DNA of 64,000 nt. Source: a bacterium. GTDB taxonomy: Archaea > Micrarchaeota > Micrarchaeia > Micrarchaeales > CABMGC01. This document shows, piece by piece, positions 224 to 41,385 of this stretch. The position numbers were made by a program, and so were the translations under genes. Numbering within the stretch: position 1 is the stretch's first letter; every line of letters begins with the position of its first letter. The stretch covers positions 1-64,000 of the forward strand of contig JAKBPE010000004.1 of the NCBI GenBank assembly GCA_021829835.1. The letters are read 5' to 3'. The notes below the pieces were generated by a model that was not told where the DNA came from, ran no database searches, and saw only the letters and a program-made list of their open reading frames with translations.

Positions 224-1483
224 TTACAGTAATTTTGGTTCGTCAAGCATTTCGGATATGCTTGTGTTGTCATTCTTTGTTATCTCGTTTAGAAAGATTG
301 TAGCGTATGAACCTGAAGGAATTGAGAATTCAAGATTAAGATCGCTTGTGCCTACTATGTCCGTATAGCTGAAATCCTTGAACGGAGAGAGAATAGGCCG
401 GTATGCGCCTTTCATGCTCAATTCGGGAAGGCTCTTAATCTTGAACGAGTCTTTGTTTATCCCAAATCGTTCCATAATCTCCTTTGAATAGTCTGAGATA
501 TATTCCTCTTTTGTCTCATACCCTATAAGTGCGTCTACCTCGAAAGTCTTTTCCTTTGATTCGGAGACAGACTCGATGTCGGGAAAGCCGTGGAAGTTAG
601 CCTTGCATCCCAGCCTTGATTCGAGATCACCTTCCCTGATTCTCTTCTCCAGTACAGCGTTGAATATTGCATCCTCTACCGAGTGTATGAACATGATTGC
701 TATTCCGCGCTGCAGATTTCTTATTGCATTGTGGAAGTTCCTATATCTTGCAAGGTATGCTATCATAGCCCGCTCCGGGCGCAGATGCCTTGGGAAGTAA
801 TCTAATGCCTTTTGAAAATCCCTCTCTTCGGCAAGCCTTGCCCTCGCTTCGCGTGACTCCATGTCTGTCTCTTTGCCGCTATAGGTAAGAAATGACATTA
901 CAGCTTCTTCCATCTCATTGTGTAGTATATGCATGCCTATGCTGAAATTGTTTAGGCGGTATCCGAACCGCTGCCTGTCAAAATAATTTGGAAAGCGACC
1001 CATAGACTCCTCAATTATGGAAGGAATGCGTTCTATGCCTCCACTGAATCCATTAAGCTTTACAGAAAATGAGTTTCCCAGATTGCTTCCCAGGGTGGTT
1101 TCGCTGCCTTCCCACGCGCCGTTTATATGTATGTCCTTTATGCTTATCGAGCTTATGCTGGAAGGAGTGACACCGTAAATGGAAGCAAGCTGAACTGAAA
1201 TGGATCTTTTGTCCTTTACTCCAGCATAGCTTATGGATTTTCTTCCGCGGCCTGCTTTTTTTGCAATTGAGAGCAATGCGGATATAGTATCCCAGTTCTT
1301 CTTTTCCAGTATGAAGGTGGTAAACTTGCTTCCAGGCATAGGCGACTCTCCAAGTTCCTCAGGAAGGTATTTGCGGCCGGGTTCAAGCACCTTCCCAGAC
1401 TTTGTTATCTCTTTTACTATGAAATCTTCTGGTTCTGTTTTTACCTTCCCTCTGATGCCTTCTGCTTTCGTAATCGTAATCAT
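224..1483 (-). CDS. truD: tRNA pseudouridine synthase D (TruD/Pus7 family)
   Basis: MITITKAEGIRGKVKTEPEDFIVKEI..., KNWDT, AGVKDKRS, NYFDRQRFG motifs. Start set at the internal Met (1483) rather than 1621. Confidence 0.9.
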   Translation of the reverse strand: MITITKAEGIRGKVKTEPEDFIVKEITKSGKVLEPGRKYLPEELGESPMPGSKFTTFILEKKNWDTISALLSIAKKAGRGRKSISYAGVKDKRSISVQLASIYGVTPSSISSISIKDIHINGAWEGSETTLGSNLGNSFSVKLNGFSGGIERIPSIIEESMGRFPNYFDRQRFGYRLNNFSIGMHILHNEMEEAVMSFLTYSGKETDMESREARARLAEERDFQKALDYFPRHLRPERAMIAYLARYRNFHNAIRNLQRGIAIMFIHSVEDAIFNAVLEKRIREGDLESRLGCKANFHGFPDIESVSESKEKTFEVDALIGYETKEEYISDYSKEIMERFGINKDSFKIKSLPELSMKGAYRPILSPFKDFSYTDIVGTSDLNLEFSIPSGSYATIFLNEITKNDNTSISEMLDEPKLL

Positions 1484-1500
1484 GAAATCACTTATAAACC

Positions 1501-2340
1501 TTGGCGTTTGATTATATATGTGATACCTTGCAAAGGGATTCGCTAGTAGAAAGGCTAGCATATAGGCTGATAAAAAAGCACATAGCCGGGCCGACAATGA
1601 ATTCTGCAATAGAAAAGGCACAGTGGCTCAGCAGGGAAAAGATGCTTTCTTCCATAATGTTCCTCAGCGACGCCCCTGAGAATAAAACAAAGGCGAGGTA
1701 TATAACTACAACATACACGGAGTTGATAAGAAGAATATCCAGGTTAGGACTAAAGGCAAGCGTTCATGTGCCTGTAGACAGAATAGGTGGATTTATAGAT
1801 GGAGGTTTCGCCTCTGAGAATCTTATGGACATAGTCAGTGTAGGAAATAAGGCAGGTGTTTTTGTATGGGCAGCCTTCGATCAGGATTATGGAAAGGAAA
1901 TAGAACCTGAGAGGTTTATAGGAGCAAAAGGTTTTGGAATTGCTGCACCTGAGGATATAGAGCCTGAGATAGCAGACAGGTGGAATGCCAGCGCAGTAAA
2001 GATACTCTTCAGCGCGGAGCATGAGAAGGAGAGGATTTCACGTATTAAAGAAATAAAAGCAGCTATGGAAAAAAGAAAGACTGTTGTGATAGCGTCTCCG
2101 CCAAAAAAGCTTTTGTCGGAAATATCAAATCCAAAGTTCAAGAAAGGACTGGTGTTGGAATTTGGATTAGGATACAGCAGGAGAAAGATAGCAAAACTCG
2201 CAAAGAAAGGATTCACTACAAGCATGTGCGTGCCGTTTGGAAAGGACTGGACATCTTATGCAATAAGCATGGTACCTGAGAGCAAGGCAGGATTTATAGT
2301 AGGGAATCTGCTTAAGGAAGAGGAGAAGAGGATAGTATGA
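1501..2340 (+). CDS. Proline dehydrogenase-like (PRODH TIM-barrel) protein; start uncertain
   Basis: C-terminal VPFGKDWTSYAISMVPE resembles the PRODH VPYGxxWxxYxxRRLxE signature; overlaps the next gene by ATGA. Confidence 0.6.
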   Translation: MAFDYICDTLQRDSLVERLAYRLIKKHIAGPTMNSAIEKAQWLSREKMLSSIMFLSDAPENKTKARYITTTYTELIRRISRLGLKASVHVPVDRIGGFIDGGFASENLMDIVSVGNKAGVFVWAAFDQDYGKEIEPERFIGAKGFGIAAPEDIEPEIADRWNASAVKILFSAEHEKERISRIKEIKAAMEKRKTVVIASPPKKLLSEISNPKFKKGLVLEFGLGYSRRKIAKLAKKGFTTSMCVPFGKDWTSYAISMVPESKAGFIVGNLLKEEEKRIV

Positions 2341-3305
2341 AGTCATCCAAGAAGGAGATAGTTCTTGTTACAGGAGGCACAGGCAGGCTTGGAAGACATA
2401 TCACCACTTCGCTGATAAATAAAGGAATGGAGGTAAGGGTGCTTGTTCAGACCAAGGAGGACACTGTACGCGCAAAGGCAGGAAGCATACCATACCTTGG
2501 AGACATCACTGATGAGAAGGCAATAGAAAAAGCATGCGAAGGCGCAGATACAGTGATACATCTTGCAGCGATGGTAAGCCAGTACAAGACAGGGCTTAAC
2601 GAAATAATGAGGATAAATACGCTTGGAACCAGAAAACTTGCGGAGACAGCTAAGGAATCTGGGGTCAAGAAAATAATATTCGCCAGCACAATCAATGTTT
2701 ATGGAAGAGTTCGGAAGGAGGAGCTTTCTGAAGAATCGAAATTGATGCCTACTGACAGTTATGGCCAAAGCAAGCTGCTTGCCGAAAAAGAGATAATAAA
2801 TTCAGGCTTGGATTATACTATACTTAGAATGGCCACAATATATGGCCCTGGATTTGAGAGCTCCTTTCTTAAGGTCTTCAAAGCAGTGAAAGAAGGCAAG
2901 GCATTTATAATAGGAAACGGAAAGAACAACCTCTCGCTTGTGCATATAGCGGATGTGGTCAGGGCATTTGAGCTTGTCCTTGAGAATAGGGAGAAGAGCC
3001 GGAATAAGATATATAACATAACTGATGGAAGGATATACACCCAGAAGTATCTTCTAACCCTGGCAGCGAATACACTGGGAGTTGAGGCTCCTGAAAAGCA
3101 CGTGAATACGCTTGTGGCTAGAATGGTCGCAAAGGCCAGAGGTTTGGATACCGACGAATTAAGGTTCATAACCAGCGACAGGAAGATAGACATATCGAAA
3201 GCCAGGAAGGAACTGGGGTTCAAACCTACCGAGAGTGTAGAATCGGGCGCAGGATATCTGCTTAGTAAGTTCAATATTTCAGACAGGAGAAAGGTGGATA
3301 AATGA
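2337..3305 (+). CDS. NAD-dependent epimerase/dehydratase (extended SDR)
   Basis: VTGGTGRLGRHI Rossmann motif, YGQSKLLAE (YxxxK), HIADVVRA. Confidence 0.85.
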   Translation: MKSSKKEIVLVTGGTGRLGRHITTSLINKGMEVRVLVQTKEDTVRAKAGSIPYLGDITDEKAIEKACEGADTVIHLAAMVSQYKTGLNEIMRINTLGTRKLAETAKESGVKKIIFASTINVYGRVRKEELSEESKLMPTDSYGQSKLLAEKEIINSGLDYTILRMATIYGPGFESSFLKVFKAVKEGKAFIIGNGKNNLSLVHIADVVRAFELVLENREKSRNKIYNITDGRIYTQKYLLTLAANTLGVEAPEKHVNTLVARMVAKARGLDTDELRFITSDRKIDISKARKELGFKPTESVESGAGYLLSKFNISDRRKVDK

Positions 3306-4084
3306 AAATAGGAAAAATAGAGAAATATATACAGGATAACCTTGACAAAGAAGGAGCGCTGCTCTTCGTGCTTATCGACCCTGTTGATTACAAAGATTCG
3401 GATGATGCGGTAGCTACAGCGTACAACGCGGTAGAGGGAGGAGCGGACATAGTCCTTATAGGGGGAAGTACTGGCGCTCAGGGAGAACTTCTTGAGGAAA
3501 CCACCAAGAGGATATCGGAAAAAATAAATGTGCCGGTAGTCCTCTTTCCTGGGAATATAGCCACAGTAACTAAGTATGCTGATGCTGTTTATTTCATGTC
3601 GTTGCTAAATGCAAGGAATCCTTACTGGATAACGCAGGCGCAGATGCTTTCAGCTCCTCTTGTAAAGTCGCTCAATATAGAACCTCTTCCCGTAGGATAC
3701 ATAGTAGTACAGCCTGGGGGAACAGTGGGTTGGGTAGGCGATGCCAACATGATACCACGAGAGAAGCCAAAAATAGCCGCGTCTCTTGCTCTTGCTGGAG
3801 AATTTTTAGGCAATAGGATCATAGTCACAGATGCCGGATCAAATCCACAACTGCAGGGATACTCTGGCGTGCCTCTCGATATGATAAGAGAAGTCAGAAG
3901 AGTAATATCCGTTCCTTATATTGTAGCAGGAGGCATCAAGACAGTCGACGATGCCAGGAATGTTATAAAAAACGGGGGAGACATAATACAGGTAGGCACT
4001 GCCATAGAGAAATCAGGAAACCCTAAAGAAAGAACTCTTGCCCTTTCCAAAGCCATAAAAGAAGAGGGAAAAAGGAGAAGATGA
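3302..4084 (+). CDS. Geranylgeranylglyceryl phosphate synthase
   Basis: LIDPVDY, GGADIVLIGGSTG, PVVLFPGN, YIVVQPGGTVGWVGDA, PYIVAGGI match archaeal GGGPS/PcrB-like proteins. Confidence 0.92.
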   Translation: MKIGKIEKYIQDNLDKEGALLFVLIDPVDYKDSDDAVATAYNAVEGGADIVLIGGSTGAQGELLEETTKRISEKINVPVVLFPGNIATVTKYADAVYFMSLLNARNPYWITQAQMLSAPLVKSLNIEPLPVGYIVVQPGGTVGWVGDANMIPREKPKIAASLALAGEFLGNRIIVTDAGSNPQLQGYSGVPLDMIREVRRVISVPYIVAGGIKTVDDARNVIKNGGDIIQVGTAIEKSGNPKERTLALSKAIKEEGKRRR

Positions 4085-4122
4085 TCTCCTGGTTTTGTCT
4101 TGTGTTTGAATGAGCAATAGAT

Positions 4123-5238
4123 ATGCGAGAGATAACTTCAATAGAGATAAGCAGGACATTGGATGAGCTTAGAGGAAAACTTGAAGGAAGCCGCCTAAGG
4201 AAATTCTATGATTTTGGAGAGGGCTCTTTTAGGATACTTTTTTACAAGAAGGAAGGCAATGTACAGATATACTGCAAACTTCTTGGAACATTTAATGAAA
4301 CAAAATTCGTAGAGCCTGCTGAAGAAGCTTCAACTTTTGCAATGGGAATCAGGAAGAGAATAGAGAACTCCAGAGTTACATCACTGAAGCAGCATGATTC
4401 CGACAGGATGATAATTATCGAGTTCAGTGCGGATGGTTACAGGCTGATAATCGAGATGTTTGGAAAGGGAAACGTAATACTCATAAATAGCAGCGGAGTT
4501 ATAGAGCAGTGCTATAAAACAATCAGATACAGGGATAGAAGCGTTGCTCCTGGAAACCACTATGAGTTTCCGAAAGGCAATGTTCTTCCCATAGGTAAAC
4601 TTGACAAAGATACATTCAGGAAGATTCTTGACGATGCCCCGCCAGGTAAGAAGCTCATAAGGCATCTTTCAGATATCATGAACATAGGCCCGATATATCT
4701 TGAGGATATTATAAGGAGGAGCGGGCTTGAACCTGGAGTTGATGCTTTGGCTCTGGATGAAAATTCAAAGAATATGCTGGTCAGCCAGATGCTTCTTTTC
4801 AGTGAAAGGGAAAAGGCGGAGAAACCCAGAATCTATCTTGAAGAAGGCTCGGCAAAGGATTATTCCATTGTAGATGTAGTTAGATACAAAGGGCTGGAAA
4901 GCAGAGAATATGAAAACCTCAATGAACTGCTTGATGATTTCTGGATCGAGCCTCGGATGGAAAACGCCGATACTGCAATGAATTCTGAAAAGAAGAAGAT
5001 AGAGTCAAGCATGGAAGCACAGAAGCAGTTGATAAAGAGCGCAATGGCAGAATCGGATTACTATTCAAAAGGAGGGATGAAGATATTTGAGAAAATGCAG
5101 GAGATAAATATGCTTATAGAGTATCTAAAAAAGAACAGGAATGCCAAACTGGACGAAGTGCGCAGAGTATTTCCACACATGAATATAAAAGAACTTGAAT
5201 TAAAAAACAAGACGGTGAAGATAGAGATAGAAGATTGA
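4123..5238 (+). CDS. NFACT-N (FbpA/Rqc2-like) protein, apparently lacking NFACT-R
   Basis: N-terminal MREITSIEISRTLDELRGKLEGSRLRKFYDFG..., GNVILINSSGVI; ends at 371 aa after a coiled-coil stretch. Confidence 0.8.
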   Translation: MREITSIEISRTLDELRGKLEGSRLRKFYDFGEGSFRILFYKKEGNVQIYCKLLGTFNETKFVEPAEEASTFAMGIRKRIENSRVTSLKQHDSDRMIIIEFSADGYRLIIEMFGKGNVILINSSGVIEQCYKTIRYRDRSVAPGNHYEFPKGNVLPIGKLDKDTFRKILDDAPPGKKLIRHLSDIMNIGPIYLEDIIRRSGLEPGVDALALDENSKNMLVSQMLLFSEREKAEKPRIYLEEGSAKDYSIVDVVRYKGLESREYENLNELLDDFWIEPRMENADTAMNSEKKKIESSMEAQKQLIKSAMAESDYYSKGGMKIFEKMQEINMLIEYLKKNRNAKLDEVRRVFPHMNIKELELKNKTVKIEIED

Positions 5239-6148: not shown

Positions 6149-6219
6149 GAGGGTATCGTCTAGTGGTAGGACGACAGATTGACATTCTGTAAGCAGGAGT
6201 TCGATTCTCCTTACCCTCA
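6149..6219 (+). tRNA. tRNA-Val (anticodon GAC)
   Basis: Hand fold: acceptor GAGGGTA/TACCCTC, anticodon stem ACAGA/TCTGT with loop TTGACAT, T arm AGGAG-TTCGATT-CTCCT, discriminator A. Confidence 0.93.
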
Positions 6220-6282
6220 TTCACCTTGAAGACCGATTAATACAGGTATATCTTTATATATCTTTTCTTTCTAGATATAAGC

Positions 6283-7491
6283 ATGACATACGCTGAAGCT
6301 GCAACAAAAAGAAGCGCAAAACTAATCGATGCCATAGCTTTAGATCCTAACATACCGAAAAGTAACAAGAAACTGGCTGCTGAGTATGCGGACTTTATGC
6401 GCGCAAGAGGCCTGACGGAAAGATCGGTATCCAAAAATCTCTATTGCCTCTCCACCTTTTTCAAGTTCGCAGGAAAGAAAGACATATTGAAGCTGACAAA
6501 GGAAGAGGTTACTAGGGCCGTTGCCGGGATTGAGGGCAGCGGATACTCCACGAAGACCAAACAAGGCATACTTATAGCGATAAAGTCGCTGTATAAACAC
6601 TTCCTCGGCAATGACGACCTCTATCCAGACCAGGTGCGCTGGATAAAAACGACAATGAAAGGCTCCAAACGAGTCCTTCCGGAGGACATACTTGTCGAAC
6701 AAGACATACTAAAGATGATAAAGGCCTCGAACAGTGTAAGGGACAAGGCCATAATAGCACTTCTCTTTGACAGTGGAGTCAGGATCGGAGAGCTTCTGAA
6801 TATGAAAGCTAGGGATGTCAATCTCAAGACTGAACCCGTTCATGTAACCGTGGATGGTAAAACAGGCATGCGCCAAATCCCGATAACATTCAGCGCGAAA
6901 TACCTTGCGCTGTATTTGGACATGCAGACGGAAAGGAAGCCAGGAGATTACCTATGGAACATGAAGGGCAGCTGGTCCAATTCAAATGCGCCCTTGGACA
7001 GGGCAGGCGTGGCCAAGATGCTGAACCTCGTGGCGAAGAAGGCAGGGATAGAGAAACGAGTTAATCCACACTCTTTCAGGCACGCACGAGCCACTCATTA
7101 TGCCAACAAACTCACAGAACAGCAGCTCAAGGTCTTTTTCGGCTGGACTGGAAGCAGCAATATGGCAAGCACATACGTGCATTTGAGTGGGAGGGACATA
7201 GATAATGCGATACTCCAGGCAAATGGAATGAAACCCGTAGAAGTAAACGAGGAGTCCAAACTCATAGAGAAGACATGTCCAAGATGCCAGAATACCAATA
7301 CAGTCAGCTCAACCTATTGCAGCAGATGCGGTTCCGCCCTTGACATTTCAATAGCGATTAGAGATGAGGAGAGGCGCAAGACTGTCGAAGAGGCTGCAGT
7401 CGCTGAGATGGAGAAGAAGTTTCAGAAAAATGAACTCGCAAAGAAGATAAAGGGAAAAAGGGCTTCAACAAGTCAGGTTAATAAACCTTAA
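6283..7491 (+). CDS. Tyrosine recombinase/integrase with C-terminal zinc ribbon
   Basis: RIGELLNMKARDV, HSFRHARATHYA, TYVHLSGRDID catalytic segments; CPRCQ...CSRCG at the C-terminus; 63 nt after tRNA-Val. Confidence 0.93.
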   Translation: MTYAEAATKRSAKLIDAIALDPNIPKSNKKLAAEYADFMRARGLTERSVSKNLYCLSTFFKFAGKKDILKLTKEEVTRAVAGIEGSGYSTKTKQGILIAIKSLYKHFLGNDDLYPDQVRWIKTTMKGSKRVLPEDILVEQDILKMIKASNSVRDKAIIALLFDSGVRIGELLNMKARDVNLKTEPVHVTVDGKTGMRQIPITFSAKYLALYLDMQTERKPGDYLWNMKGSWSNSNAPLDRAGVAKMLNLVAKKAGIEKRVNPHSFRHARATHYANKLTEQQLKVFFGWTGSSNMASTYVHLSGRDIDNAILQANGMKPVEVNEESKLIEKTCPRCQNTNTVSSTYCSRCGSALDISIAIRDEERRKTVEEAAVAEMEKKFQKNELAKKIKGKRASTSQVNKP

Positions 7492-7506
7492 TTTCGTGGT
7501 ATTATC

Positions 7507-8346
7507 ATGCACGGACGCCAAAAAGTCTTATTGTACCTTGTCCTGCAGCTTAAGAAGCGCGAGATCCACATTTCCAAGACCAGCCTCAACAAGTTTCTAT
7601 TTGTGATGGGAAAGGAGTCAGAGATATCAGAACAAGTCCGATTTTACAGTTTTTATCCATATCTTTATGGTCCGTTTTCAAGCCAGCTTAATCTGGACAT
7701 AGCAGACTTGCAGAGCAGGGCATTCCTTGACGAAAAACTGGACTTGAAGATAAGCGAGGAGGAAACAAGTCGTATGGTCAACAGAAAGACCATTGAAATT
7801 GTGGATAATTTGCTGGCTAGAAGAATGGGCGAAAACATAGTGTCGTACGTATATGGAACCTATCCAGAATATACAAGCAGAAGCCGTTTGAGAAGGCATC
7901 CGCAAACCAAGAAGGAGCCTGGCATATTTTCCATAGGATATGAAGGCCACAACATAGATTCGTTCCTTGATCTGCTCATACAGAACGAGATAGAGACAGT
8001 AGCAGACCTAAGACATAATCCATTTAGCATGAATATGGTCTTTACAAAGTCAAGGCTTTCAGGTTACCTTGGAAAGATAGGGATAAATTACCTCCACATA
8101 CCTGAATTAGGAATAGATGGTAGATACAGGAAGAACCTCAATGATGATGAAGATTACCAGAAACTTTTCGCCTTTTACTCCAGTGAGATACTTCCGAAAC
8201 AGGAAGATAAAGTTAAGCGGATTGTTGAAATGGGTAAGACGAATAGGGTGGCAATGCTTTGTTTTGAGCATGACAAGGACCACTGCCATAGGGGAGTCGT
8301 AAGCAAGGAACTTGAGAAGGACTCGGTCATGGTGAAACACTTATGA
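7507..8346 (+). CDS. DUF488-family protein with an N-terminal phage-associated (Panacea/DUF4065-like) domain
   Basis: C-terminal SIGYEGHNIDSFLDLLIQNEIETVADLRHNPFSMN...LCFEHDKDHCHRGVV is DUF488; N-terminal KVLLYLVLQLKKREIHISKTSLNKFLF...YGPFS is Panacea-like. Confidence 0.75.
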   Translation: MHGRQKVLLYLVLQLKKREIHISKTSLNKFLFVMGKESEISEQVRFYSFYPYLYGPFSSQLNLDIADLQSRAFLDEKLDLKISEEETSRMVNRKTIEIVDNLLARRMGENIVSYVYGTYPEYTSRSRLRRHPQTKKEPGIFSIGYEGHNIDSFLDLLIQNEIETVADLRHNPFSMNMVFTKSRLSGYLGKIGINYLHIPELGIDGRYRKNLNDDEDYQKLFAFYSSEILPKQEDKVKRIVEMGKTNRVAMLCFEHDKDHCHRGVVSKELEKDSVMVKHL

Positions 8347-9101
8347 AGGAACGGCTTCTTGTTCTTGCCAAGGCGGTTCCCGAGATCAGCAGCAAGTACG
8401 AGAGTCTTGTCTGCGTTGCAGGAATAACCGACTCTGGGGAATGGAGAAGGATTTATCCGATTCCCTGGAACATATTCTGGGGAACAAGTAGCAGGAATTT
8501 CAAGAAGAAGTACTGGATTGAATATGAGACTGCCGGTTCTGGAGATTACAGACATGAGAGTATGAAGATAAAACCTGAAACAATAAAACCTATCGGAGAG
8601 GCAAGCTTTAGTGAAATAGAAAGTATGTTGAAAGACAGACTTACAACAATAGAAGAATTGGAAGAACTTGGACCTAAGAAGACTTCTCTCGGTGTCGTAG
8701 AACCCAAGGAATTGATTGACTTCGTGCCTACCTCTAACAAGCACTATGAGGAACTTACGCAGATGTCCAAGCAGAAGGACCTTTCCGGAGGCAAGGCAGT
8801 AAAACTAGACATACCGGAGTACAAATATCGCTACATATTCAAGGATGTGATAGGAGAGAAGAGGAACCATGAGAATCTTTGCGAAGACTGGGAAGTTGGA
8901 GAACTCTATAGAAACTGCAAACGTTATCTCGAACAGGGAAAATACAAGAATGAGGAGGAATTACACCAGAAGGTTAAGGAGAAGATGCTTACTAAGATAA
9001 CCAAGAACGGACATTTCTATTTCATAGTAGGATCACACTTTATATTTCCTACATATATGATAGTTGGAGTCGTTTATCCTAGAAAAGAAGATATTGAATA
9101 G
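8343..9101 (+). CDS. Uncharacterised protein paired with DUF488 ('LVCVAGITDSGEWRRIYPIPW' family)
   Basis: 252 aa ORF, 4-nt ATGA overlap with the DUF488 gene; distinctive LVCxAGIT..GEW.RIYPIPW N-terminus. Confidence 0.7.
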   Translation: MKERLLVLAKAVPEISSKYESLVCVAGITDSGEWRRIYPIPWNIFWGTSSRNFKKKYWIEYETAGSGDYRHESMKIKPETIKPIGEASFSEIESMLKDRLTTIEELEELGPKKTSLGVVEPKELIDFVPTSNKHYEELTQMSKQKDLSGGKAVKLDIPEYKYRYIFKDVIGEKRNHENLCEDWEVGELYRNCKRYLEQGKYKNEEELHQKVKEKMLTKITKNGHFYFIVGSHFIFPTYMIVGVVYPRKEDIE

Positions 9102-9141
9102 GTGCGCATGTCCGAATACCATATATTGAAGTAAAAGCTTA

Positions 9142-9190
9142 TATACTTGAGTATAAGATTTAATGGCCGTAGGAAGAGATTTATATCTCT
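9142..9190. promoter_or_regulatory. Putative promoter/operator of the divergent TFB gene: two short palindromes
   Basis: TATACT-tg-AGTATA (9142-9155) and AGAGAT-ttat-ATCTCT (9175-9190); the second spans a TATA-like box ~25 nt before ATG 9209. Confidence 0.45.
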
Positions 9191-9208
9191 TCTAAACCAA
9201 ATCCAATT

Positions 9209-10075
9209 ATGGGGGAGAAGGCTGGGGAGCCTAACCCAAGGTTATGCATTGCCTGTGGGAAAGGCCAGATAGTGCTGGATGGACTACTTGGCGAGTATTA
9301 CTGCGGAATCTGCGGCTTGGTAGCCGAAGAGGGCGTAGTGGATTTCTCTGATGTCTCATTCCTTTTTGATGAGGACAATCTATCATCACAATCTCCTACG
9401 AGCTTCACAAAAGTAAACAAAGGACTGGGCACGCTTCTGGATGCGAAGGATGCCATCTTTTCAGGCATAGATAACAAGAACTTATTAAGAGAACCGATGG
9501 AAAATGAGGAGAGAAACTTCTCAAAGGCACTTCACTATTTACACATTGTCTGGGATGGACTATCGCTTCCTGGAGATTTGAGGAGCAGCTCCGCGATTCT
9601 GTATCGGAAATGCATAAAGAGGGGCATAACTAACGGGAGAAAGATGGAGGTCATGGCCCTTGCCACAGCCTCAATGATGTGCGAAGAGGCTGGAATAACT
9701 CGTAGTACAGATAAGTTGATTGAAGCATTCGAATTAAAGTCAAACGAGATAACTGCATGTACGAAGGCAATTAAAGAAGGGTTTGGAGTAATTGAGAAAC
9801 ACCAGCAACTTAGAACCTTATTATCTGATGGCCTCATCAAGGTTGAAGCTGCGGAGGAATTGAAGAATAAGGCCTCCAGGATGATGGAAGCCGTAATAAT
9901 GAACAAGCTCTATTCAAGGAAGAAGCCGGAGGTGGTGGTGATGGTGGTTCTGATGCCGGTCCCGATGGCTGAGGGGCTTAGGCTAGCCAGGCTCGGCCAA
10001 ACAGACAATCCAACCACAAGGCGTGCCAGAGGGCTCGCTCCGCAATCGCTCGCCAGCTCGGCACGCCGCTTGTAG
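9209..10075 (+). CDS. Divergent transcription initiation factor B-like protein; C-terminal frame uncertain
   Basis: CIACGKGQIVLDGLLGEYYCGICGLVAEEG zinc ribbon plus helical cyclin-like region. Another frame gives LFKEEAGGGGDGGSDAGPDG* ending at 9972. Confidence 0.7.
   Translation: MGEKAGEPNPRLCIACGKGQIVLDGLLGEYYCGICGLVAEEGVVDFSDVSFLFDEDNLSSQSPTSFTKVNKGLGTLLDAKDAIFSGIDNKNLLREPMENEERNFSKALHYLHIVWDGLSLPGDLRSSSAILYRKCIKRGITNGRKMEVMALATASMMCEEAGITRSTDKLIEAFELKSNEITACTKAIKEGFGVIEKHQQLRTLLSDGLIKVEAAEELKNKASRMMEAVIMNKLYSRKKPEVVVMVVLMPVPMAEGLRLARLGQTDNPTTRRARGLAPQSLASSARRL
10016..10073. repeat. GC-rich inverted repeat
   Basis: ACAAGGCGTGCC (10016-10027) pairs with GGCACGCC-(gc)-TTGT (10060-10073). 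Confidence 0.6.
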
Positions 10076-10190
10076 GTTTACATAGATTATAAGGTTCCCG
10101 AAGAAGTAAACACAATGTTTCAGAGATAAAAATAGAAGAAAGGTTTACCCTAAAATAAAAAATGGTGAACCTTTCTTTGGCTGTGGGGGC

Positions 10191-10424
10191 TTATATGCCT
10201 CCAAAACCACTGGTATTTTCGAATAGGTCGTAGATGAACATGCCCAGACTTACCGTACCTATGATCCCCGCCACCGCTAGGATTATGACCACCACAGCAT
10301 AGAAGAGGTCCATGTTTATGCCTGCTGCGGCAAATGCGCCTGCCAACATGCACAAAACTGCGATTACTATCGCCAGTTTTAATGTTTCTATTCCGTCTTC
10401 GACCACTTTCCCATATGGATTCAT
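10191..10424 (-). CDS. Small protein with two predicted transmembrane helices
   Basis: 77 aa; LAIVIAVLCMLAGAFAAAG and FYAVVVIILAVAGIIGTVSLGMFIY segments. Confidence 0.55.
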   Translation of the reverse strand: MNPYGKVVEDGIETLKLAIVIAVLCMLAGAFAAAGINMDLFYAVVVIILAVAGIIGTVSLGMFIYDLFENTSGFGGI

Positions 10425-10566
10425 TTTCTCGCCTTTATATTTTAGGTGGCTCTTTTCCTATTTATTGCTTTTGTACGAAAAAATTCTGGAGGCAATACTT
10501 TTTATTTTTAAAAGTTCTAACTATTAATCTACGGATCTGAGGTATATGTTATCGACCATACAAAGC

Positions 10567-10634
10567 GAATCGGCTTTGACGACGGGAGAACCTTACCCCC
10601 AAAGGATAGCATTTGATAGCGTTTGTCATGGTTT
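10567..10634 (+). repeat. att-like direct repeat R1 (core CCTTACCCcCA at 10591-10601)
   Basis: Aligns ungapped with R3 at 54/68 positions (hand count); core matches the tRNA-Val 3' end at 10/11. Confidence 0.75.
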
Positions 10635-10693
10635 TACATGCCTCCTAGAAGGCTTTTATATGTGAACAGAGCCACCTATCTTGGAAGGATAGA

Positions 10694-11908
10694 ATGAAAT
10701 TAAGCAAGTTGCCATACTCACAGGCTATACTTCCACCAGATAGCTGGAGGGAGATGACTTTCGCTGAACTAGTGAGAAAGGCACATCTGGCTTATGACAT
10801 GAGCCAAGGGATTTGCTTCATACCTGCTGTGCTTACCAGAACTTATCGAAGAATGGATTCTATCATACGTGAGGCCTGCCTGGAAGAGAGTTTTTCTGAG
10901 GTTCAGGTACCCTTACTAATGAGAACCGAACTTGTGAGAAAGAGTGGTAAATATGAAAAATATGGAAGCGAGTTCTTTGAAGTTGGAAGGGATTCCAGGT
11001 ATATTTTATCCGGAACAACCGAAGAGATGTTTTTGCAATATCTGTCTCGAGGAGGCCTAGAATCTTATAATCAGCTTCCAATCAGGGCGTTCTATTTTGG
11101 TGAGATATTCAGAAATATAAAAAGGCCTGAAGGATTGTACAAAGGCAGGGAATTCTATGGCCATTATGCCTTGTCTCTGGATGCAGATAGTGAAGGTTAT
11201 ATTAAGAGCCTTGCTGCCTTTGAGGCTATGTGCGAGAAGGTATGGAGACTACTCGGTATACAGAATGTAGTATATAAGATAAAGAGCAATGACGGACTTG
11301 CTGTAGAATACCTTTCAGAAAGCCTTTCAGGAGACAGAACTTTTGATAAGAGTGTTGTTATAAAACGTGGTGAAGGCCAGCATTCTGACAAAACATTATC
11401 TTCTGACAAAAAGCTAAGTAGTCTAGCCATGGCGTATATTTTCAGTGAGGCAGATAATTTTGGACTAGCCTTTACCAACTCAGAAGGAAGAAAAGCTATT
11501 CCTGTTGTAGGTACCTATGCGATAGGCATTCAGAGGTGTCTTGCTACAATGTTTGACAACCTTAGAGATGAATCAGGAATCAATCTGCCTAAACAGGTAA
11601 GACCTTTTGATATAGCAATTATACCAATTGATCCAAACAATCAGAGTCAGAACGAGATTCTTGAAAGGCTTTATATATCATTATCAAAGGCAGGCTTATC
11701 TGTCGCATTGGATGATAGACGCTTGATGCTCTCCGAAAGACTTAGATTTGCAGACTTTGTAGGGATTCCATACAGGATGGTGTTTGGTGTAAGAGATATG
11801 AAAAGGCAGGTAATTGAAATTAGAGAGAGGGGAGATCGAGACAAATTTGACTATATATCACTTACAGAAGCGGTGGAATCTGTCAAAAAATTAGTGCGAG
11901 AAGAATAA
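10694..11908 (+). CDS. Class II prolyl-tRNA synthetase-like protein (no editing insertion)
   Basis: SGTTEEMFLQ, FYFGEIFRNIKRPEGLYKGREFY, GTYAIGIQRCLATM (motif 3), C-terminal PFDIAIIPID...DDR...ERLRFADFVGIPYRMVFG anticodon-binding-like domain; 404 aa. Confidence 0.8.
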   Translation: MKLSKLPYSQAILPPDSWREMTFAELVRKAHLAYDMSQGICFIPAVLTRTYRRMDSIIREACLEESFSEVQVPLLMRTELVRKSGKYEKYGSEFFEVGRDSRYILSGTTEEMFLQYLSRGGLESYNQLPIRAFYFGEIFRNIKRPEGLYKGREFYGHYALSLDADSEGYIKSLAAFEAMCEKVWRLLGIQNVVYKIKSNDGLAVEYLSESLSGDRTFDKSVVIKRGEGQHSDKTLSSDKKLSSLAMAYIFSEADNFGLAFTNSEGRKAIPVVGTYAIGIQRCLATMFDNLRDESGINLPKQVRPFDIAIIPIDPNNQSQNEILERLYISLSKAGLSVALDDRRLMLSERLRFADFVGIPYRMVFGVRDMKRQVIEIRERGDRDKFDYISLTEAVESVKKLVREE

Positions 11909-12082
11909 ACATGGAATCAACCTATAAAAGAGCATTAATGGGAGTTTACGGTGCGCATAAACCTAGAAATTTAGATATTAGAAAGGACATAAATCTCGCA
12001 GTTACTTGTCTATTAATAGTGTAAATGCAGATAATGTATTTATATATAATAGAACTACTAAGATATTAGATCGGGTGGAAGT

Positions 12083-13213
12083 ATGAATTCATTATATTTG
12101 CCGAATGAAGATCATACGCTAGGGTATGCTGGGAATAAGATTTTCAAACCTATAAAAAGCATATCTAATGACATTAGTATAGACTTGTTCAGAAGTAGGT
12201 TGAAGGAACTTCATAACGACGAAATGTGGGATCATATCTCAAGAATAAATCACACAATTAATATGGCTACTCACGAGTATTTCGATAAATTGGGTAGCCT
12301 TTTCGTTTTATTGCCACTCACCACAAGAATGATCTCATCTCCTGGGGCATTGTATGGTAAGGAAAAACTTGATTATACGCAGGACACGGTTCCCGTAAAG
12401 TTAAACTGGTTTGAACTCAAAAAAGATATCTTCCTATCAGAATCTTCTCAGATATATCTTGAGCTTTATCTTGCTATGAAGAACATAAAAGGAGTTTATG
12501 CAGTCTATAATTCCTTTAGAAAGGAGCCTTCAGATTCAACTCACCTTTCAGAATTCCACCATATTGAATATGAAGGAAAGGTATCTCAGAAGGAAAATAA
12601 AAAAGTAATAATAGATCTGATAGGAAAAATTATCGACAAACTTCTGAAATTAAACGCAGATGACTTATCATTCTTCATCTCAGATGGAGATATATACTTC
12701 CTTAAAGATTTCGCTAAAAACAGAAGAATAACTGAGATTACATTTGAGCAGGCTTTGGATGTACTTTATAGCAAAACAAAGAATAATAAGTACAAGGAAT
12801 TCACCAGCAAGAATTTTGGGGCTTGGGAGGAAGTCAAACTAACAAGTGAAACTGGGAACATCACTGCGATCTCAGAATTTCCTCTTTATGAGGTAGCGTT
12901 TTATCACGCTCCTATTGATAATGATGGAAAATCAGTTGCAGATAATACTGATTTTATATGGCCTTATTACAGGGAATTTGTAGGCTCAGGACATAGAGTA
13001 AGATCTTTGGACGAGTTGCTTGTAAAGGCTAAAAAGTTTAACCTTCCTGAGCAGGATTATAGGAATTATCTGGCATCACGCCAGTTTGATGATTATTCAG
13101 AGACTTCAGGATTCGGATTAGGCTGGGAGAGATTTTTGCAGGGACTGCTAAAGATGCCCTTTATATATTCTGCTTCTGCATTCCCCAGAGTTCATAATAC
13201 AATAGAGCCGTAG
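12083..13213 (+). CDS. AsnRS/AspRS-like class IIb catalytic core without the N-terminal OB anticodon domain
   Basis: YNSFRKEPSDSTHLSEFHHIEYEG (motif 2) and SGFGLGWERFLQGLLKMPFIYSASAFPR (motif 3). Confidence 0.8.
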   Translation: MNSLYLPNEDHTLGYAGNKIFKPIKSISNDISIDLFRSRLKELHNDEMWDHISRINHTINMATHEYFDKLGSLFVLLPLTTRMISSPGALYGKEKLDYTQDTVPVKLNWFELKKDIFLSESSQIYLELYLAMKNIKGVYAVYNSFRKEPSDSTHLSEFHHIEYEGKVSQKENKKVIIDLIGKIIDKLLKLNADDLSFFISDGDIYFLKDFAKNRRITEITFEQALDVLYSKTKNNKYKEFTSKNFGAWEEVKLTSETGNITAISEFPLYEVAFYHAPIDNDGKSVADNTDFIWPYYREFVGSGHRVRSLDELLVKAKKFNLPEQDYRNYLASRQFDDYSETSGFGLGWERFLQGLLKMPFIYSASAFPRVHNTIEP

Positions 13214-13218
13214 ATTGG

Positions 13219-14052
13219 ATGGATATCAGAAATCTCAAAGTTGAAGACATTCAGAAGATGAATTACAATGAGTTAATAGGTATTGTTAAAGAGACGAACA
13301 GGCCGCCTGGAGGAATTAAAACAATAATGGAAGTTTTGAATACTGTCAGTCTGGATGAAAACTCCAAAATACTCGATATAGGCACAAGCACAGGATTTAC
13401 AGCTATAGAATTTGCAAGACTGACAAAATGCAATGTTGTAGGTATAGATATAAATCAAATGTCTTTGGATGAAGCAAAGAAAAGAGCCGAAAGATTAAAG
13501 TTAAACACCGCATCATTTTTAAAAACTGATGCGACAAATCTTCCATTTAAAGAAAATGAATTTGATCTTGTTTTTTGTGGGAATGTGACATCTTTAATTC
13601 CTAATAGAAAGAAGGCATTTTCGGAGTATATTCGTGTTTTGAAGGAAGGAGGTTTCCTTGTAGCTACACCTATGTATTATAGAAGAGATCCGCCGTCTCT
13701 TTTGATTGAGAAGATTTCTTCTGCCATAAGAACAGAGATTAAAATAGACCGAAAAGGATATTGGTTATCATTTTTCTCAGATAATAATCTACAACACATA
13801 TCGATTAAAGATTTTGTTTTTGACACTATAAATTCAGATAGGATAGATCTATTTATCAATAATATCCTAAGCAGAGAACATCTGGGAGATCTTTCAGAGC
13901 AGGTTATGAAACTCTTAAAAGAAAAATATGGCAATTATATATCGCTCTTTTCAGAGAATCTCAGATATATGGGTTACTCTCTTATCATTCTAAGGAAAAA
14001 GGATTCTGAGATTGATGAGGAATTATTTACATCAACTGCTTGTGACTCCTGA
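13219..14052 (+). CDS. Class I SAM-dependent methyltransferase
   Basis: ILDIGTSTGFTAIEFARL, VVGIDIN, LPFKENEFDLVFCGNV; 3' end overlaps the convergent peptidase gene by 21 bp. Confidence 0.85.
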   Translation: MDIRNLKVEDIQKMNYNELIGIVKETNRPPGGIKTIMEVLNTVSLDENSKILDIGTSTGFTAIEFARLTKCNVVGIDINQMSLDEAKKRAERLKLNTASFLKTDATNLPFKENEFDLVFCGNVTSLIPNRKKAFSEYIRVLKEGGFLVATPMYYRRDPPSLLIEKISSAIRTEIKIDRKGYWLSFFSDNNLQHISIKDFVFDTINSDRIDLFINNILSREHLGDLSEQVMKLLKEKYGNYISLFSENLRYMGYSLIILRKKDSEIDEELFTSTACDS

Positions 14053-15069
14053 CTCGGATAACTCAAATGAATTAGAGTGTGAGTCGATAAGAGCTCTTAC
14101 CCCCAACGGTAAGGTCAATATGGGATCCGTATGCCCTATATCTGCACCATATAGAATTGGTATGTTATAAGTTACAGTGTTCTCCAACAGAATCTTTTTC
14201 AATTCGGTTACCTCCTCGGCGCTATAATGTGTAGGTCTTCCTACTATGAGTCCCTTTATCTGAGAAAGTGTTCCATACAAATCGAGATCTGTGAGTAGTG
14301 AATCGACCTCAGATACAGGTTCACCTTTTGTAAAATCGTGGCTCTCTGGAATATCTAAAAACATGATTGCATTTTTATGATTAGGCCAGAATTTTGTGCC
14401 TTTAAGATGCATTATTGAAGGTAGGCAGCCGCCCATAAGAATTCCTTCCGCTTTTCCTTGCCTTAGCCATTCATAACCGTTATTTTTTATCATCTTCCTT
14501 GATCTTTCCAGATCAAGTCTTTGCATCCAGTCGAGTATTTCATCTGTCCATTTATCAGAAGGCTTTATCTTGCCAACAGGCTTGGAGGAGCATACCGCTT
14601 TATTGAAATAATCAATTGTGTAAGGAAGGGGTTTTGGTTGTTCTGCAAACTGCGTCATTATACAGGGGCCATAAAAAGTCATTAGATTTGACTGTGTATG
14701 AAGAGCATAATGTAGTACAGATATGTCAGAATACCCACAAAATATCTTTGGATTATCCTTTATAGTACTAAAATCAAGGTATTTCAATGTTTGATTGGCA
14801 GTATACCCTCCTATATTACAGATTATTGCCTTGATCTCATCGTCATTGAAAGCCTCATTGATGTCTTTTGCCCTGTTCTTGGCAGTATCTGAGCTGTGGC
14901 CCTTTGAACTTGTTGCTGTTGGAAATAATTTGATCTTATAGCCCTCATTCCTAAGATACTCTGAGGCATTTTGTAAGCGATGTGGCACGAAGGCCGAGAA
15001 ACCCGAAGATGGTGCAACTACACCTATTGTATCCCCTTTTTCAAGCAGACTCGGCTTTGATAAAGACAT
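14032..15069 (-). CDS. MccF-like S66 serine peptidase / LD-carboxypeptidase family
   Basis: LLEKGDTIGVVAPSSG, NIGGYTANQTLKYLDF, KIFCGYSDISVLHYAL, MTFYGP. Start set at the internal Met (MSLSKPSLLEKGD). Confidence 0.85.
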   Translation of the reverse strand: MSLSKPSLLEKGDTIGVVAPSSGFSAFVPHRLQNASEYLRNEGYKIKLFPTATSSKGHSSDTAKNRAKDINEAFNDDEIKAIICNIGGYTANQTLKYLDFSTIKDNPKIFCGYSDISVLHYALHTQSNLMTFYGPCIMTQFAEQPKPLPYTIDYFNKAVCSSKPVGKIKPSDKWTDEILDWMQRLDLERSRKMIKNNGYEWLRQGKAEGILMGGCLPSIMHLKGTKFWPNHKNAIMFLDIPESHDFTKGEPVSEVDSLLTDLDLYGTLSQIKGLIVGRPTHYSAEEVTELKKILLENTVTYNIPILYGADIGHTDPILTLPLGVRALIDSHSNSFELSESGVTSS

Positions 15070-15109
15070 AAATATGAAGATTGACCTCAATATATATAAA
15101 ATAAGCTGG

Positions 15110-17143
15110 GTGCTTAATCTGGACAATCCCGATGTACTTGTTAAGGGAAATGGTATGTTCGTTGATGACATTACATTTCCCGAAATGTTACATATGGCAG
15201 TGATAAGAAGCCCTTATGGCAGAGCAAGAATTTTGAGTATTAGCGGCGGCCTCAATGCAGCAGAATTTAATCCAGCTCTTGCTACGGTGCTAGAAACTGC
15301 AGGTAAGGGAAGAGAAGCGTATATCCAACATGTTTTTGCGAATGGTAGTGTTAACTATTATGGTGAACCAGTCGCTGCAGTATTTGGAAATAGCATTTAC
15401 GAAGCCCTAGACAATTCAGAAAAAGTTAGAGTAGAGTATGATCCTATGAAGGCTATTGTAAGCATAGATGATGCTCTTATTAGAGAACCGTTGTATCCAG
15501 GACTAAATAATAACATAATGGTGGAGAATTATGTAGGGCAGAATTTTGAAATGTTAGATGCACCGGTGATGATAAAGGACACATTCTTTAATGATAGAAT
15601 ATCCCCAAATCCTATAGAAACAAGAGGGCTTATCGCATCTTATAAGTCAGGTCTATTGGATATTTGGATGTCTGTTCAGGCGGCTTCTAGTTTGAAGATA
15701 GACATATGCAAAACACTAGATTTGGATCCAGACAAAGTGAGGATAATCCAAGCCGATACCGGAGGTGGCTTCGGTTCAAAAGGGGGAATTATGTATCCAG
15801 AGTATGCTATGGCAATATACGCCTCAATGAAATCAGGAAAGCCAGTCAAATGGATAGAAACAAGGGAAGAGCATCTTAAAGCGACATGTCAAGGGCGTGG
15901 CGTGCGTGGAGAGATGACACTTTATGCTAATGAAAATGGAAGGGTACTGGGAATAAAAGGGACTGTGACTGTAGATGGGGGCGCATATGCAGGAGGAATG
16001 GCAGAATTTGCACCTGCACATATCGTAAGGCAACTTACAGGCGTGTATCAGATTGAGAATGCCTATTTTAGAGCAGTAAGTGTTTATACGAATAAAGTAC
16101 CTCATGGACCTTATAGGGGTGCAGGTATGCCTGAAGCCTCTTTCTTTATAGAAAGAATGATGGACAGGCTGGCAGACAAACTGAATATGGACCCAATTGA
16201 GATTAGATTAATTAATGCGACAAAAACTGAGTTTAGATCTCCTCTGGGCATGGAGATTGGGCCCTCAGCTCGATTCGTAGCTGAAGCTGCAAAGGAATTT
16301 GATTATGATCGACTTAGAAATACAAGTACGGGATTCTCTTGTTTTGTACTTGTCCCCCAAACAGATTTTGGAGAAAGTGCACGAATAAAGATAGAAAACG
16401 GAAAAGTAAATGTCTGGTTAGGTTCAAATACACATGGACAGAGACATGAGGTTGTTGTGAAGCGATTACTTAGGGAGGAGCTCGAAGTTAGTGAAGATAT
16501 AATAACTTTGCTCAGAGGAGACACGAGCAAAATTAGAGATGGTTTTGGGAGTGGAGGGAGCAGATCGATTATGATGGGAGGCACAGCATTGATATTTGCA
16601 GCAAGAAAAATCAAGGACCAAATAAGGAAGACTTCGGGTAAATACAGTAGTGATGTTTTACTTTCCAGCAATTTTGATGTTTCCTATAATTATTCACATG
16701 AAGGAGAAATAAACTCTTTTGGTGCAAACTTTGCTAAGGTGAGTATAGATGAATCTGGAGGTATTAAAGTCGAAGAAGTTAAGTCTTATTATGATGTTGG
16801 AAGACTAATCGATCCTGAAGGCGCAAAAGCACAGGTTATGGGAGGAGTTTTGCAAGGAATAGGTCAGGTCTTATCTGAAAGAATTATATATGATGAAAAT
16901 GGACAATTACTAACTTCAGGTATAGCTGAAGCAGGATTACTGAGAGCAGATAATACACCTAGATTTGTTGTAAATTTTGTTGAGAATCCTTCTTGCCTTC
17001 CACACGGAGCTAAAGGATTAGGTGAATCTCCAGCTATAGGAACGCCGACTGCAGTAGTAAGAGCGATAGAAAATGCCATTAATGACAAAATAAGCAACAC
17101 CCCGATAAGCCTAAAACAGATAAGGAAATTGAAATCAGGCTGA
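15110..17143 (+). CDS. Xanthine dehydrogenase/CO dehydrogenase-type molybdenum hydroxylase large subunit (orphan); start ambiguous (ATG 15074 or GTG 15110)
   Basis: GGGFGSKGG, GPYRGAGMPEASFFIERMMDRLA, AQVMGGVLQGIGQ, AKGLGESPAIGTPTAV. Confidence 0.85.
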   Translation: MLNLDNPDVLVKGNGMFVDDITFPEMLHMAVIRSPYGRARILSISGGLNAAEFNPALATVLETAGKGREAYIQHVFANGSVNYYGEPVAAVFGNSIYEALDNSEKVRVEYDPMKAIVSIDDALIREPLYPGLNNNIMVENYVGQNFEMLDAPVMIKDTFFNDRISPNPIETRGLIASYKSGLLDIWMSVQAASSLKIDICKTLDLDPDKVRIIQADTGGGFGSKGGIMYPEYAMAIYASMKSGKPVKWIETREEHLKATCQGRGVRGEMTLYANENGRVLGIKGTVTVDGGAYAGGMAEFAPAHIVRQLTGVYQIENAYFRAVSVYTNKVPHGPYRGAGMPEASFFIERMMDRLADKLNMDPIEIRLINATKTEFRSPLGMEIGPSARFVAEAAKEFDYDRLRNTSTGFSCFVLVPQTDFGESARIKIENGKVNVWLGSNTHGQRHEVVVKRLLREELEVSEDIITLLRGDTSKIRDGFGSGGSRSIMMGGTALIFAARKIKDQIRKTSGKYSSDVLLSSNFDVSYNYSHEGEINSFGANFAKVSIDESGGIKVEEVKSYYDVGRLIDPEGAKAQVMGGVLQGIGQVLSERIIYDENGQLLTSGIAEAGLLRADNTPRFVVNFVENPSCLPHGAKGLGESPAIGTPTAVVRAIENAINDKISNTPISLKQIRKLKSG

Positions 17144-17248
17144 TAAATCTTGGTATAGACCATCATTCTATTTTGTCTATCATAGTGATATTCTTCGATA
17201 TCATTTACTATAATTTGTAGTCATTTCATATCATTTTACATCGAAAAT

Positions 17249-17316
17249 GATTCGGCCTTTACCGCCTAAGAACCTTACCCTCACTTGTATGCATTTGTCT
17301 GCTTGTGACAGTGTTT
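17249..17316 (+). repeat. att-like direct repeat R2 (core CCTTACCCTCA at 17273-17283)
   Basis: 11/11 match to the tRNA-Val 3' end; ungapped 49/68 identity to R3, strongest in the left half. Confidence 0.75.
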
Positions 17317-17455
17317 GGTATAGAAAGTGAAGTAGATAGATATAGATGATTGACATTTATCTACCTAACTAATATATGGCACTTGTAGTCAAAAAGGATA
17401 ATATCAAAGCAGCTATGTTACCAACCAGGAACTCCCTTATTTGCTAGCATTCTGG

Positions 17456-17471
17456 ATCGAAAATAATTCGG
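17456..17471 (+). repeat. Partial copy of the sequence leading into R2
   Basis: ATCGAAAATAATTCGG vs ATCGAAAATGATTCGG at 17240-17255 (15/16). Confidence 0.5.
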
Positions 17472-17531
17472 GGTTCTTGGCTTGGAAGAAGTCAGGAAGG
17501 TTTAAAATTCCGAATGTGCAATATATATTTG

Positions 17532-17753
17532 ATGAAGGACATGCAGACGCAGCAGATGCTTGAAAGACAGATTAACACTAAGCTTGACAGGATTGCGAAA
17601 ATGCTGAGCATAGTGCTTGAGAAGATGGACGAGGCCGAGCCAGACAAGAAGCTCATCAGGAGGATAGCGAAGGAATGGAGGGAGATTGATTCTGGAAAAG
17701 TGAAGGTACATCATTACAAGAACCTTGCGGAGTTCAAGAGAGCAATAAGCTGA
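17532..17753 (+). CDS. Putative antitoxin of a RelBE-type toxin-antitoxin pair
   Basis: Small charged protein (MKDMQTQQMLERQINTKLDRIAKML...) directly upstream of a RelE-like gene. Confidence 0.65.
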   Translation: MKDMQTQQMLERQINTKLDRIAKMLSIVLEKMDEAEPDKKLIRRIAKEWREIDSGKVKVHHYKNLAEFKRAIS

Positions 17754-17761
17754 CTGATCCT

Positions 17762-18013
17762 ATGATATACAAGCCTGCCTTCACCGAGAAGATGCAGGAA
17801 GAGCTTAGACACAGAAAGGAACGTGATAGGACAACCTACGAACAAGTGATGAAGAAGATAGCGCAGATTTTGGAGAACCCAAAGATAGGCAAGCCGATGC
17901 GCAGGCCGCTAACTGGCATACGAAGGTTTCACGTTGGCTCTTTGGTAGTAACATATAGGATAGACGAGCAAGCCCATGAAGTCATCTTTACTTCCTTTGA
18001 GCACCATGAATAA
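17762..18013 (+). CDS. RelE/ParE-family toxin
   Basis: FTEKMQEELRHRKERDRTTYEQVMKKIAQILENPKIGKPMRRPLTGIRRFHVGSLVVTYRIDEQAHEVIFTSFEHHE. Confidence 0.85.
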   Translation: MIYKPAFTEKMQEELRHRKERDRTTYEQVMKKIAQILENPKIGKPMRRPLTGIRRFHVGSLVVTYRIDEQAHEVIFTSFEHHE

Positions 18014-18068
18014 GCTAAAGAGCTGAATTGTCCATTTTGAGCCGAATTGATGCGTTCTCCCCAAAAAG

Positions 18069-18136
18069 GATTCGGCCTTGACGGCCTGGGAGCCTTACCC
18101 TCAAGTGGTAGTATTTGTTAGCGTTTGTTATGGTTT
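18069..18136 (+). repeat. att-like direct repeat R3 (core CCTTACCCTCA at 18093-18103)
   Basis: 11/11 match to the tRNA-Val 3' end; best-preserved copy. Confidence 0.75.
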
Positions 18137-18384
18137 GATACACTTCCTGGATTTGCACATGAACACATTAAAAATCAAAAACCATCGAGGTAAAATCCGG
18201 ATGCAGCGGCTTGTCTGATATTTTGTGCATGAGGTAGTTTGATTGATTCGTTATTCTTTTCCACTCCATTTGGGATCGTAAAAAGGTATTATAATTTTTA
18301 TTTAAATTTGAAGATTGTAGATAATTATGAAATAATGGAAACTGGCTAGTCTGTTTTTTATAGTTTCCCGTGCTTAGACTGTTG

Positions 18385-41313: not shown

Positions 41314-41385
41314 TAGACCACTGACAGGATTCGTATAATTATCTCAATAAACTATTTTATAGATATGCTCTGCAAAATATAAACC

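Follow-up and report, generated by a model that had tools for sequence, protein, structure and literature searches.

Microcin C gene clusters encode a ThiF-family adenylating enzyme, MccB, a short ribosomal precursor peptide, MccA, whose 7-residue ORF is of a size that also arises by chance, and a dedicated exporter. In the SB-203208 pathway, SbzA is said to be an IleRS-like transferase, i.e., a synthetase-like enzyme of a natural product pathway, and we know of no MccF- or MccH-type hydrolase in that system. Nor, to our knowledge, has any small-molecule antibiotic pathway been assigned to DPANN archaea; the literature that we searched describes none. Immunity to microcin C is hydrolytic: MccF, MccH and MccG detoxify aspartamide-nucleotides, with MccF and MccG cleaving the carboxamide bond and MccH the phosphoramide bond (PMC9239234, PMC7157772), and the MccH clade of HIT proteins is marked by the motif ExxxxxHxHxKxx (PMC7157772). 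In the ascamycin pathway, AcmF, which has lost its ATP-binding residues, aminoacylates a nucleoside sulfamate, and AcmD supplies Ala-tRNA and is itself resistant (PMC12945691).

Here, we analyzed a window, i.e., the whole stretch of 64,000 nucleotides (contig 19 of an archaeal metagenome-assembled genome (MAG), 992 kb, 89% complete), from a genome whose relatives in the GTDB scan carry the label Micrarchaeota. The five ORFs that a sequence-only reading had placed here as one cassette are all present (Table 1), and four of them, encoding a ProRS-like protein (P0001), an AsnRS-like protein (P0002), a methyltransferase (P0003) and an S66 peptidase (P0004), form a conserved, undescribed cassette. 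Like microcin C clusters, cassettes of this type fill the immunity position with an MccF-type S66 peptidase, an MccH-type HIT protein or an S51 peptidase; a shared Asn/Asp-centred chemistry is implied, and the location of the window cassette on a lineage-specific island is a further point in common. However, they have stand-alone synthetase paralogs instead of MccB and are mostly archaeal. The ThiF-family profile (PF00899) gave no match in the window genome, and none of the cassettes in the 24 carrier genomes contains one, the nearest lying 7 kb from a cassette (genome G210); the cassette is therefore not an mcc cluster.

By analogy, the ascamycin cluster (AcmF/AcmD/AcmE) is the nearest logical precedent: some cassettes likewise combine a hydrolase with a diverged synthetase and its full-strength counterpart, yet they use other synthetases, a constant AsnRS-like enzyme and MccF/MccH-type hydrolases. 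While AcmF lacks ATP-binding residues, most cassette paralogs keep their adenylation motifs, the exceptions being loci L034 and L048. SbzA shares a synthetase-like nature with the cassette paralogs but belongs to class I. The asparagine synthetases AS-AR and AS-A, like P0002, consist of an AsnRS/AspRS-like core without the anticodon domain; P0002, however, scores far below the level of AS-A models and sits in a multi-gene cassette.

Table 1. Coordinates of the island, its repeats and the genes of the cassette region in the window
Feature	Coordinates	Strand	Basis or remark
tRNA-Val	6149-6219		directly before the tyrosine recombinase gene
Lineage-specific island at tRNA-Val, cassette-bearing	6220..18276	.	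comparison with genome G169
Tyrosine recombinase, first gene past tRNA-Val	6283..7491	+	Pfam
Direct repeat R1	10562..10649	+	
P0001, ProRS-like, interchangeable second synthetase	10694..11908	+	Pfam HGTP_anticodon + tRNA-synt_2b
P0002, AsnRS-like core without OB domain, constant cassette gene	12083..13213	+	Pfam tRNA-synt_2
P0003, class I SAM methyltransferase, cluster MT2	13219..14052	+	Pfam
P0004, MccF-type S66 serine peptidase, putative self-immunity	14032..15069	-	Pfam Peptidase_S66 N+C
P0005, molybdenum-hydroxylase large subunit, island cargo	15074..17143	+	Pfam MoCoBD_1/2
Direct repeat R2	17244..17320	+	
Direct repeat R3	18064..18151	+	R2-R3 brackets the ParE-like gene

Distribution of the cassette and its genomic island

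A search of the phylum (196 genomes) recovered four orthologs of P0002 with 64-67% identity, whose neighbourhoods again contain a second synthetase, a methyltransferase and an S66 or other hydrolase. A GTDB-wide scan extended the AsnRS-like orthologs to 27 loci at 46-67% identity, mainly in DPANN archaea. The archaeal carriers belong to Micrarchaeota, Woesearchaeota, Pacearchaeota, Nanoarchaeota and Parvarchaeota, with one haloarchaeon represented by a complete genome; the bacterial carriers are Actinomadura sp. NBRC 104425, on a contig of 333 kb, and MAGs that bear the labels Zixibacteria, Patescibacteria and Microcoleus, of which the Microcoleus MAG may be misbinned. Two carriers, the Actinomadura strain and Halomicroarcula sp. 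SYNS111, are cultured. Viral contigs and plasmids yielded no relative of the cassette.

Locus layouts were scored by profiles at 29 loci (the 27 GTDB loci, genome G010 and the window). An S66 gene adjoins the AsnRS-like gene at 16 of them, against a chance expectation of about 0.3% per locus from a rough background rate, and the four-gene grouping is thus not due to chance. An MT2 methyltransferase or its alternative, MT7, does so at 22/29 loci, never both together; a second synthetase paralog is found at about 20/29, a HIT protein at 6/29 and an amidohydrolase at 5/29, the last never together with S66. Not every locus is complete: a hydrolase, methyltransferase or second synthetase gene can be missing, in part because many cassettes run off the end of a contig, and L052 carries just the AsnRS-like gene and a methyltransferase gene. 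The molybdenum hydroxylase P0005 has no homolog near any other cassette locus. Hence the proposed five-gene cassette holds for the four genes that co-localize in relatives, and P0005 is a bystander. S66 presence alone was rejected as a cassette marker, with S66 genes occurring in 36 of the 196 phylum genomes, and 20 control S66 loci showed no such cassette. The literature searched, which excluded subscription papers and preprints, describes no AsnRS-like pathway of this type.

In the window genome, the cassette lies on a lineage-specific island. A genome of the same genus, G169, is collinear with the window (87%) as far as position 6219, precisely where tRNA-Val ends, and collinearity resumes at 18277; in G169, the space between these flanks is occupied by roughly 3 kb of different DNA that includes remnants of the R2/R3 region. 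The methyltransferase and AsnRS-like genes are AT-rich, with 33% and 36% G+C, respectively, versus 41% for the window. The repeats R1 and R2, previously noted as flanking the five genes, are indeed imperfect direct repeats, and a third copy, R3, was found. R1-R3 were considered as integron attC sites and rejected, given that they show no palindromic folding; likewise, a tRNA-Val-derived att site was not recovered, the window holding no exact copy of at least 13 bases of tRNA-Val elsewhere. The island also encodes a TFIIB-repeat protein (9209-10075; weak Pfam match) and, between R2 and R3, a ParE-like toxin (17762-18013) preceded by a 79-residue ORF (17514-17753) that could be its antitoxin.

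The constant AsnRS-like enzyme and its interchangeable partners

P0002 aligns with AsnRS from the core onward and lacks the N-terminal OB anticodon domain, as the sequence-only reading had proposed. The 25 AsnRS-like proteins compared form one clade (support 100/100) on a stem of 3.33 changes per site. In all 25, the motif 2 Arg (R146), the motif 3 Arg (R350), the AsnRS-type Glu (E127) and Arg R305 are invariant; we take E127 and R305 to be side-chain recognition residues from what is known of the AspRS/AsnRS family. The retention of motif 2/3 residues claimed for both P0001 and P0002 was confirmed. An AF2 model of P0002, built from 32 sequences, has a pLDDT of 91, and its best PDB match is P. 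horikoshii AsnRS with Asn-AMP (1x54; TM 0.79). The only PF00152 proteins of the window genome are LysRS, AspRS and P0002; its AspRS is non-discriminating and is followed by candidate GatC/A/B-like ORFs (39997-44314). Given this gene set, P0002 probably does not act as a tRNA synthetase. Canonical AsnRS is present as well in carriers such as G058 and G115. In a Zixibacteria MAG (L050, 8484-9881), an AsnRS gene adjoining the AsnRS-like gene is interrupted by an in-frame TAA that separates the OB domain from the core.

The similarity of P0001 to bacterial-type (family II) ProRS is confined to the two ends of the latter, which bears out the claimed absence of the editing insertion; the HGTP domain is kept. 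P0001 scores 173 and 136 bits against curated ProRS equivalog cut-offs of 558 and 306.7, and no ortholog of it occurs elsewhere in the phylum (195 further genomes). A separate canonical archaeal ProRS (L003; TIGR00408, 547 bits, cut-off 437) answers the question of whether P0001 is the only ProRS of the genome: it is an extra, bacterial-type relative. The ProRS-like proteins of the window and of L034, L035, L037, L041, L043, L044, L048, L053 and L056 group together as family II relatives, apart from archaeal housekeeping ProRS (support 89/94), and this clade includes proteins from Woesearchaeota, Pacearchaeota and Nanoarchaeota.

Across loci, the second synthetase is of Pro, Lys, Asx (AspRS/AsnRS-like), His or Leu type, and many score far below housekeeping cut-offs; the His-type assignment is weak (E 0.007; 0.37), and the diverged ProRS-type protein of Actinomadura is supported at E 9e-4 only. 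The cassette AsnRS proteins of L031 and L039 are sisters set apart from housekeeping AsnRS. At L033, L037, L043 and L046, a synthetase near or above the cut-off accompanies a diverged one of the same type, a pairing that resembles AcmF/AcmD of ascamycin (PMC12945691). The L037 and L043 genomes additionally hold an archaeal ProRS, whereas the LysRS of L033 is the sole class II LysRS detected in its genome and may therefore be housekeeping. The MetRS in the Actinomadura region and the ThrRS in L045 were rejected as cassette members and taken as housekeeping, the former being the sole clear MetRS match of its genome and the latter the sole clear ThrRS-type match there. Some cassettes have tRNA genes nearby that are cognate to their synthetase type, at L033 (8321-8391, Lys) and L050 (8192-8265, Asn) and, further off, at L035 (5253-5325, Pro), which may reflect chance or dedicated tRNAs; a G115 tRNA scoring equal to the cassette tRNA-Lys proved to be tRNA-Cys. 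At L040 (1986-3083) and L047 (6664-7869), the gene after that of the AsnRS-like enzyme encodes not a second synthetase but a PLP-dependent ornithine/arginine-type decarboxylase. In Actinomadura (L051/L097), the S66 gene is followed by the diverged ProRS-type ORF, a PhyH dioxygenase, an FkbM methyltransferase and a radical SAM/SPASM protein, and in this cultured strain the region resembles a biosynthetic cluster of larger size.

Cassette hydrolases and the proposed product

P0004 matches structures of MccF and of the MccC family along its length; homologs begin at the internal ATG at 15069, although the longest ORF reaches 15171. The best PDB matches of the S66 proteins are MccF and MccC-family entries (216-145 bits, versus 38 for P. 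aeruginosa LdcA), and P0004 scores 101.5 bits against the NCBIfam LdcA equivalog cut-off of 378; the peptidase is thus MccF-type and not LdcA-type, in agreement with the sequence-only reading. The catalytic Ser and His are conserved in 15 aligned cassette S66 proteins. Loci without S66 may instead have an amidohydrolase, an MccH-type HIT protein, an S51 peptidase (L041) or an isoaspartyl peptidase of the Asparaginase_2 type (L049). The MccH-clade motif, in which Lys replaces the third His and Glu stands six residues before the first His, is present in 6/6 cassette HIT proteins versus 4/17 other readable HIT proteins of carrier genomes (Fisher p about 0.002; 0.003 when computed with 4/16). Outside the cassettes, a cassette-like S66 (454 bits) lies within 3 kb of an MccH-type HIT gene at L069 (G063:C15, ~535-4777), which lacks an AsnRS-like gene and is possibly a stand-alone resistance island, and another (506 bits) lies beside ABC-transporter-like ORFs at L075 (G186:C28, 3809-6066), which lacks a synthetase paralog.

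Other microcin-C-immunity families thus replace S66 in other copies of the cassette, and this filling of one slot by several independent families is the main argument favouring an aspartamide- or asparaginyl-nucleotide product. We consider it an even question whether the cassette makes a small amino-acid-nucleotide antibiotic and protects its owner from it. The product would be an Asn-derived inhibitor of the aminoacyl- or dipeptidyl-nucleotide kind, assembled by synthetase paralogs that stand alone, and would be accompanied by self-immunity. This proposal builds on the observed cassette conservation, intact active sites, hydrolase types and island placement, and takes substrates and product from homology and neighbourhood. 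The AsnRS-like enzyme would activate asparagine or an Asn-derived residue with ATP, independently of tRNA, and form a warhead akin to the payload of microcin C, either an aspartamide- or an asparaginyl-nucleotide. The second synthetase paralog, ProRS-like here, would activate another amino acid, or move it from tRNA, onto the warhead, and the methyltransferase would decorate it. A cassette hydrolase, in the window the MccF-type S66 and elsewhere an MccH-type HIT protein plus amidohydrolase, an S51 or an isoaspartyl peptidase, would cut the aminoacyl-nucleotide link inside the producer, a role suggested by its specific family membership; the full-strength synthetase of the same type at a few loci could be a resistant target copy. 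In a more specific version, the constant AsnRS-derived enzyme would make the Asn-nucleotide warhead without ribosome, tRNA, NRPS or ThiF and swappable paralogs would add different amino acids, a version that we consider possible but less likely than not.

As to the earlier proposal of an aminoacyl-nucleotide- or amino-acid-derived toxin or immunity to it, the hydrolase families fit, and a putative Asn-derived nucleotide is better supported than the unspecified product first suggested. A toxin acting jointly on Pro, Asp and Asn charging is not indicated, because the ProRS-like gene is interchangeable and the AsnRS-like gene constant. Counting against the antibiotic reading are the Asp of P0004 in place of the catalytic Glu, the loss of the motif 2 Arg in the ProRS-like proteins of L034 and L048, the incomplete loci, the weak His-type assignment, the possibly housekeeping LysRS of L033, and the absence of a transporter or exporter gene from the window cassette by ORF list and Pfam.

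Alternative functions and implications

A possible but unlikely alternative is a small amide- or peptide-linked metabolite (a dipeptide, chelator, osmolyte or signal) whose synthesis would involve aminoacyl-AMPs solely as intermediates, with the S66, S51, HIT and isoaspartyl hydrolases as turnover enzymes or proofreaders of stray adenylates. Class II synthetase paralogs known to make amides (AS-A, EpmA; PMC9437257), the PLP decarboxylase of L040 and L047, and the dioxygenase and FkbM methyltransferase further along in Actinomadura are consistent with it, but the hydrolases are of the specific MccF and MccH kinds and not general LdcA or HinT. We regard as improbable an ascamycin-like route, in which the second paralogs would be tRNA-dependent aminoacyl transferases onto a nucleoside and the full-strength copies, themselves resistant, would supply aminoacyl-tRNA. 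The AcmF/AcmD precedent (PMC12945691), the paired copies in four loci and the cognate tRNA genes near L033 and L050 and further off at L035 agree with this route; however, most cassette paralogs retain motifs 2 and 3, unlike AcmF, and most cassettes have neither a full-strength copy nor a nearby cognate tRNA.

Very improbable is a pure resistance island, in which resistant synthetases would be combined with hydrolases that detoxify aminoacyl-nucleotide antibiotics of other producers: MccF-type and MccH-type genes do stand alone in carrier and related genomes, but the constant AsnRS-like enzyme, without its OB domain, is too diverged for a working tRNA synthetase, the methyltransferase is tightly linked, and carriers such as G058 and G115 have a canonical AsnRS. 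That P0002 is an AS-AR-type asparagine synthetase with incidental neighbours, as its domain loss and its weak similarity to the asparagine synthetase A models of NCBIfam might suggest, hardly deserves credence given its best score of 105 bits against a cut-off of 389 (PRK06462), its AsnRS-type Glu, the ranking of AsnRS structures above AS-AR in the PDB comparison and a neighbourhood conserved across phyla.

If the antibiotic reading is true, this family would make aminoacyl-tRNA synthetase inhibitors by recombining cut-down synthetases. It would also explain the MccF- and MccH-type genes in DPANN genomes, and the cultured carriers, Actinomadura sp. NBRC 104425 and Halomicroarcula sp. SYNS111, would offer a route to new synthetase inhibitors. 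Should the reading with swappable paralogs be true as well, exchanging one gene would yield a new antibiotic, and the cassettes would represent the first archaeal aminoacyl-nucleotide antibiotic family, a weapon of DPANN ectosymbionts.
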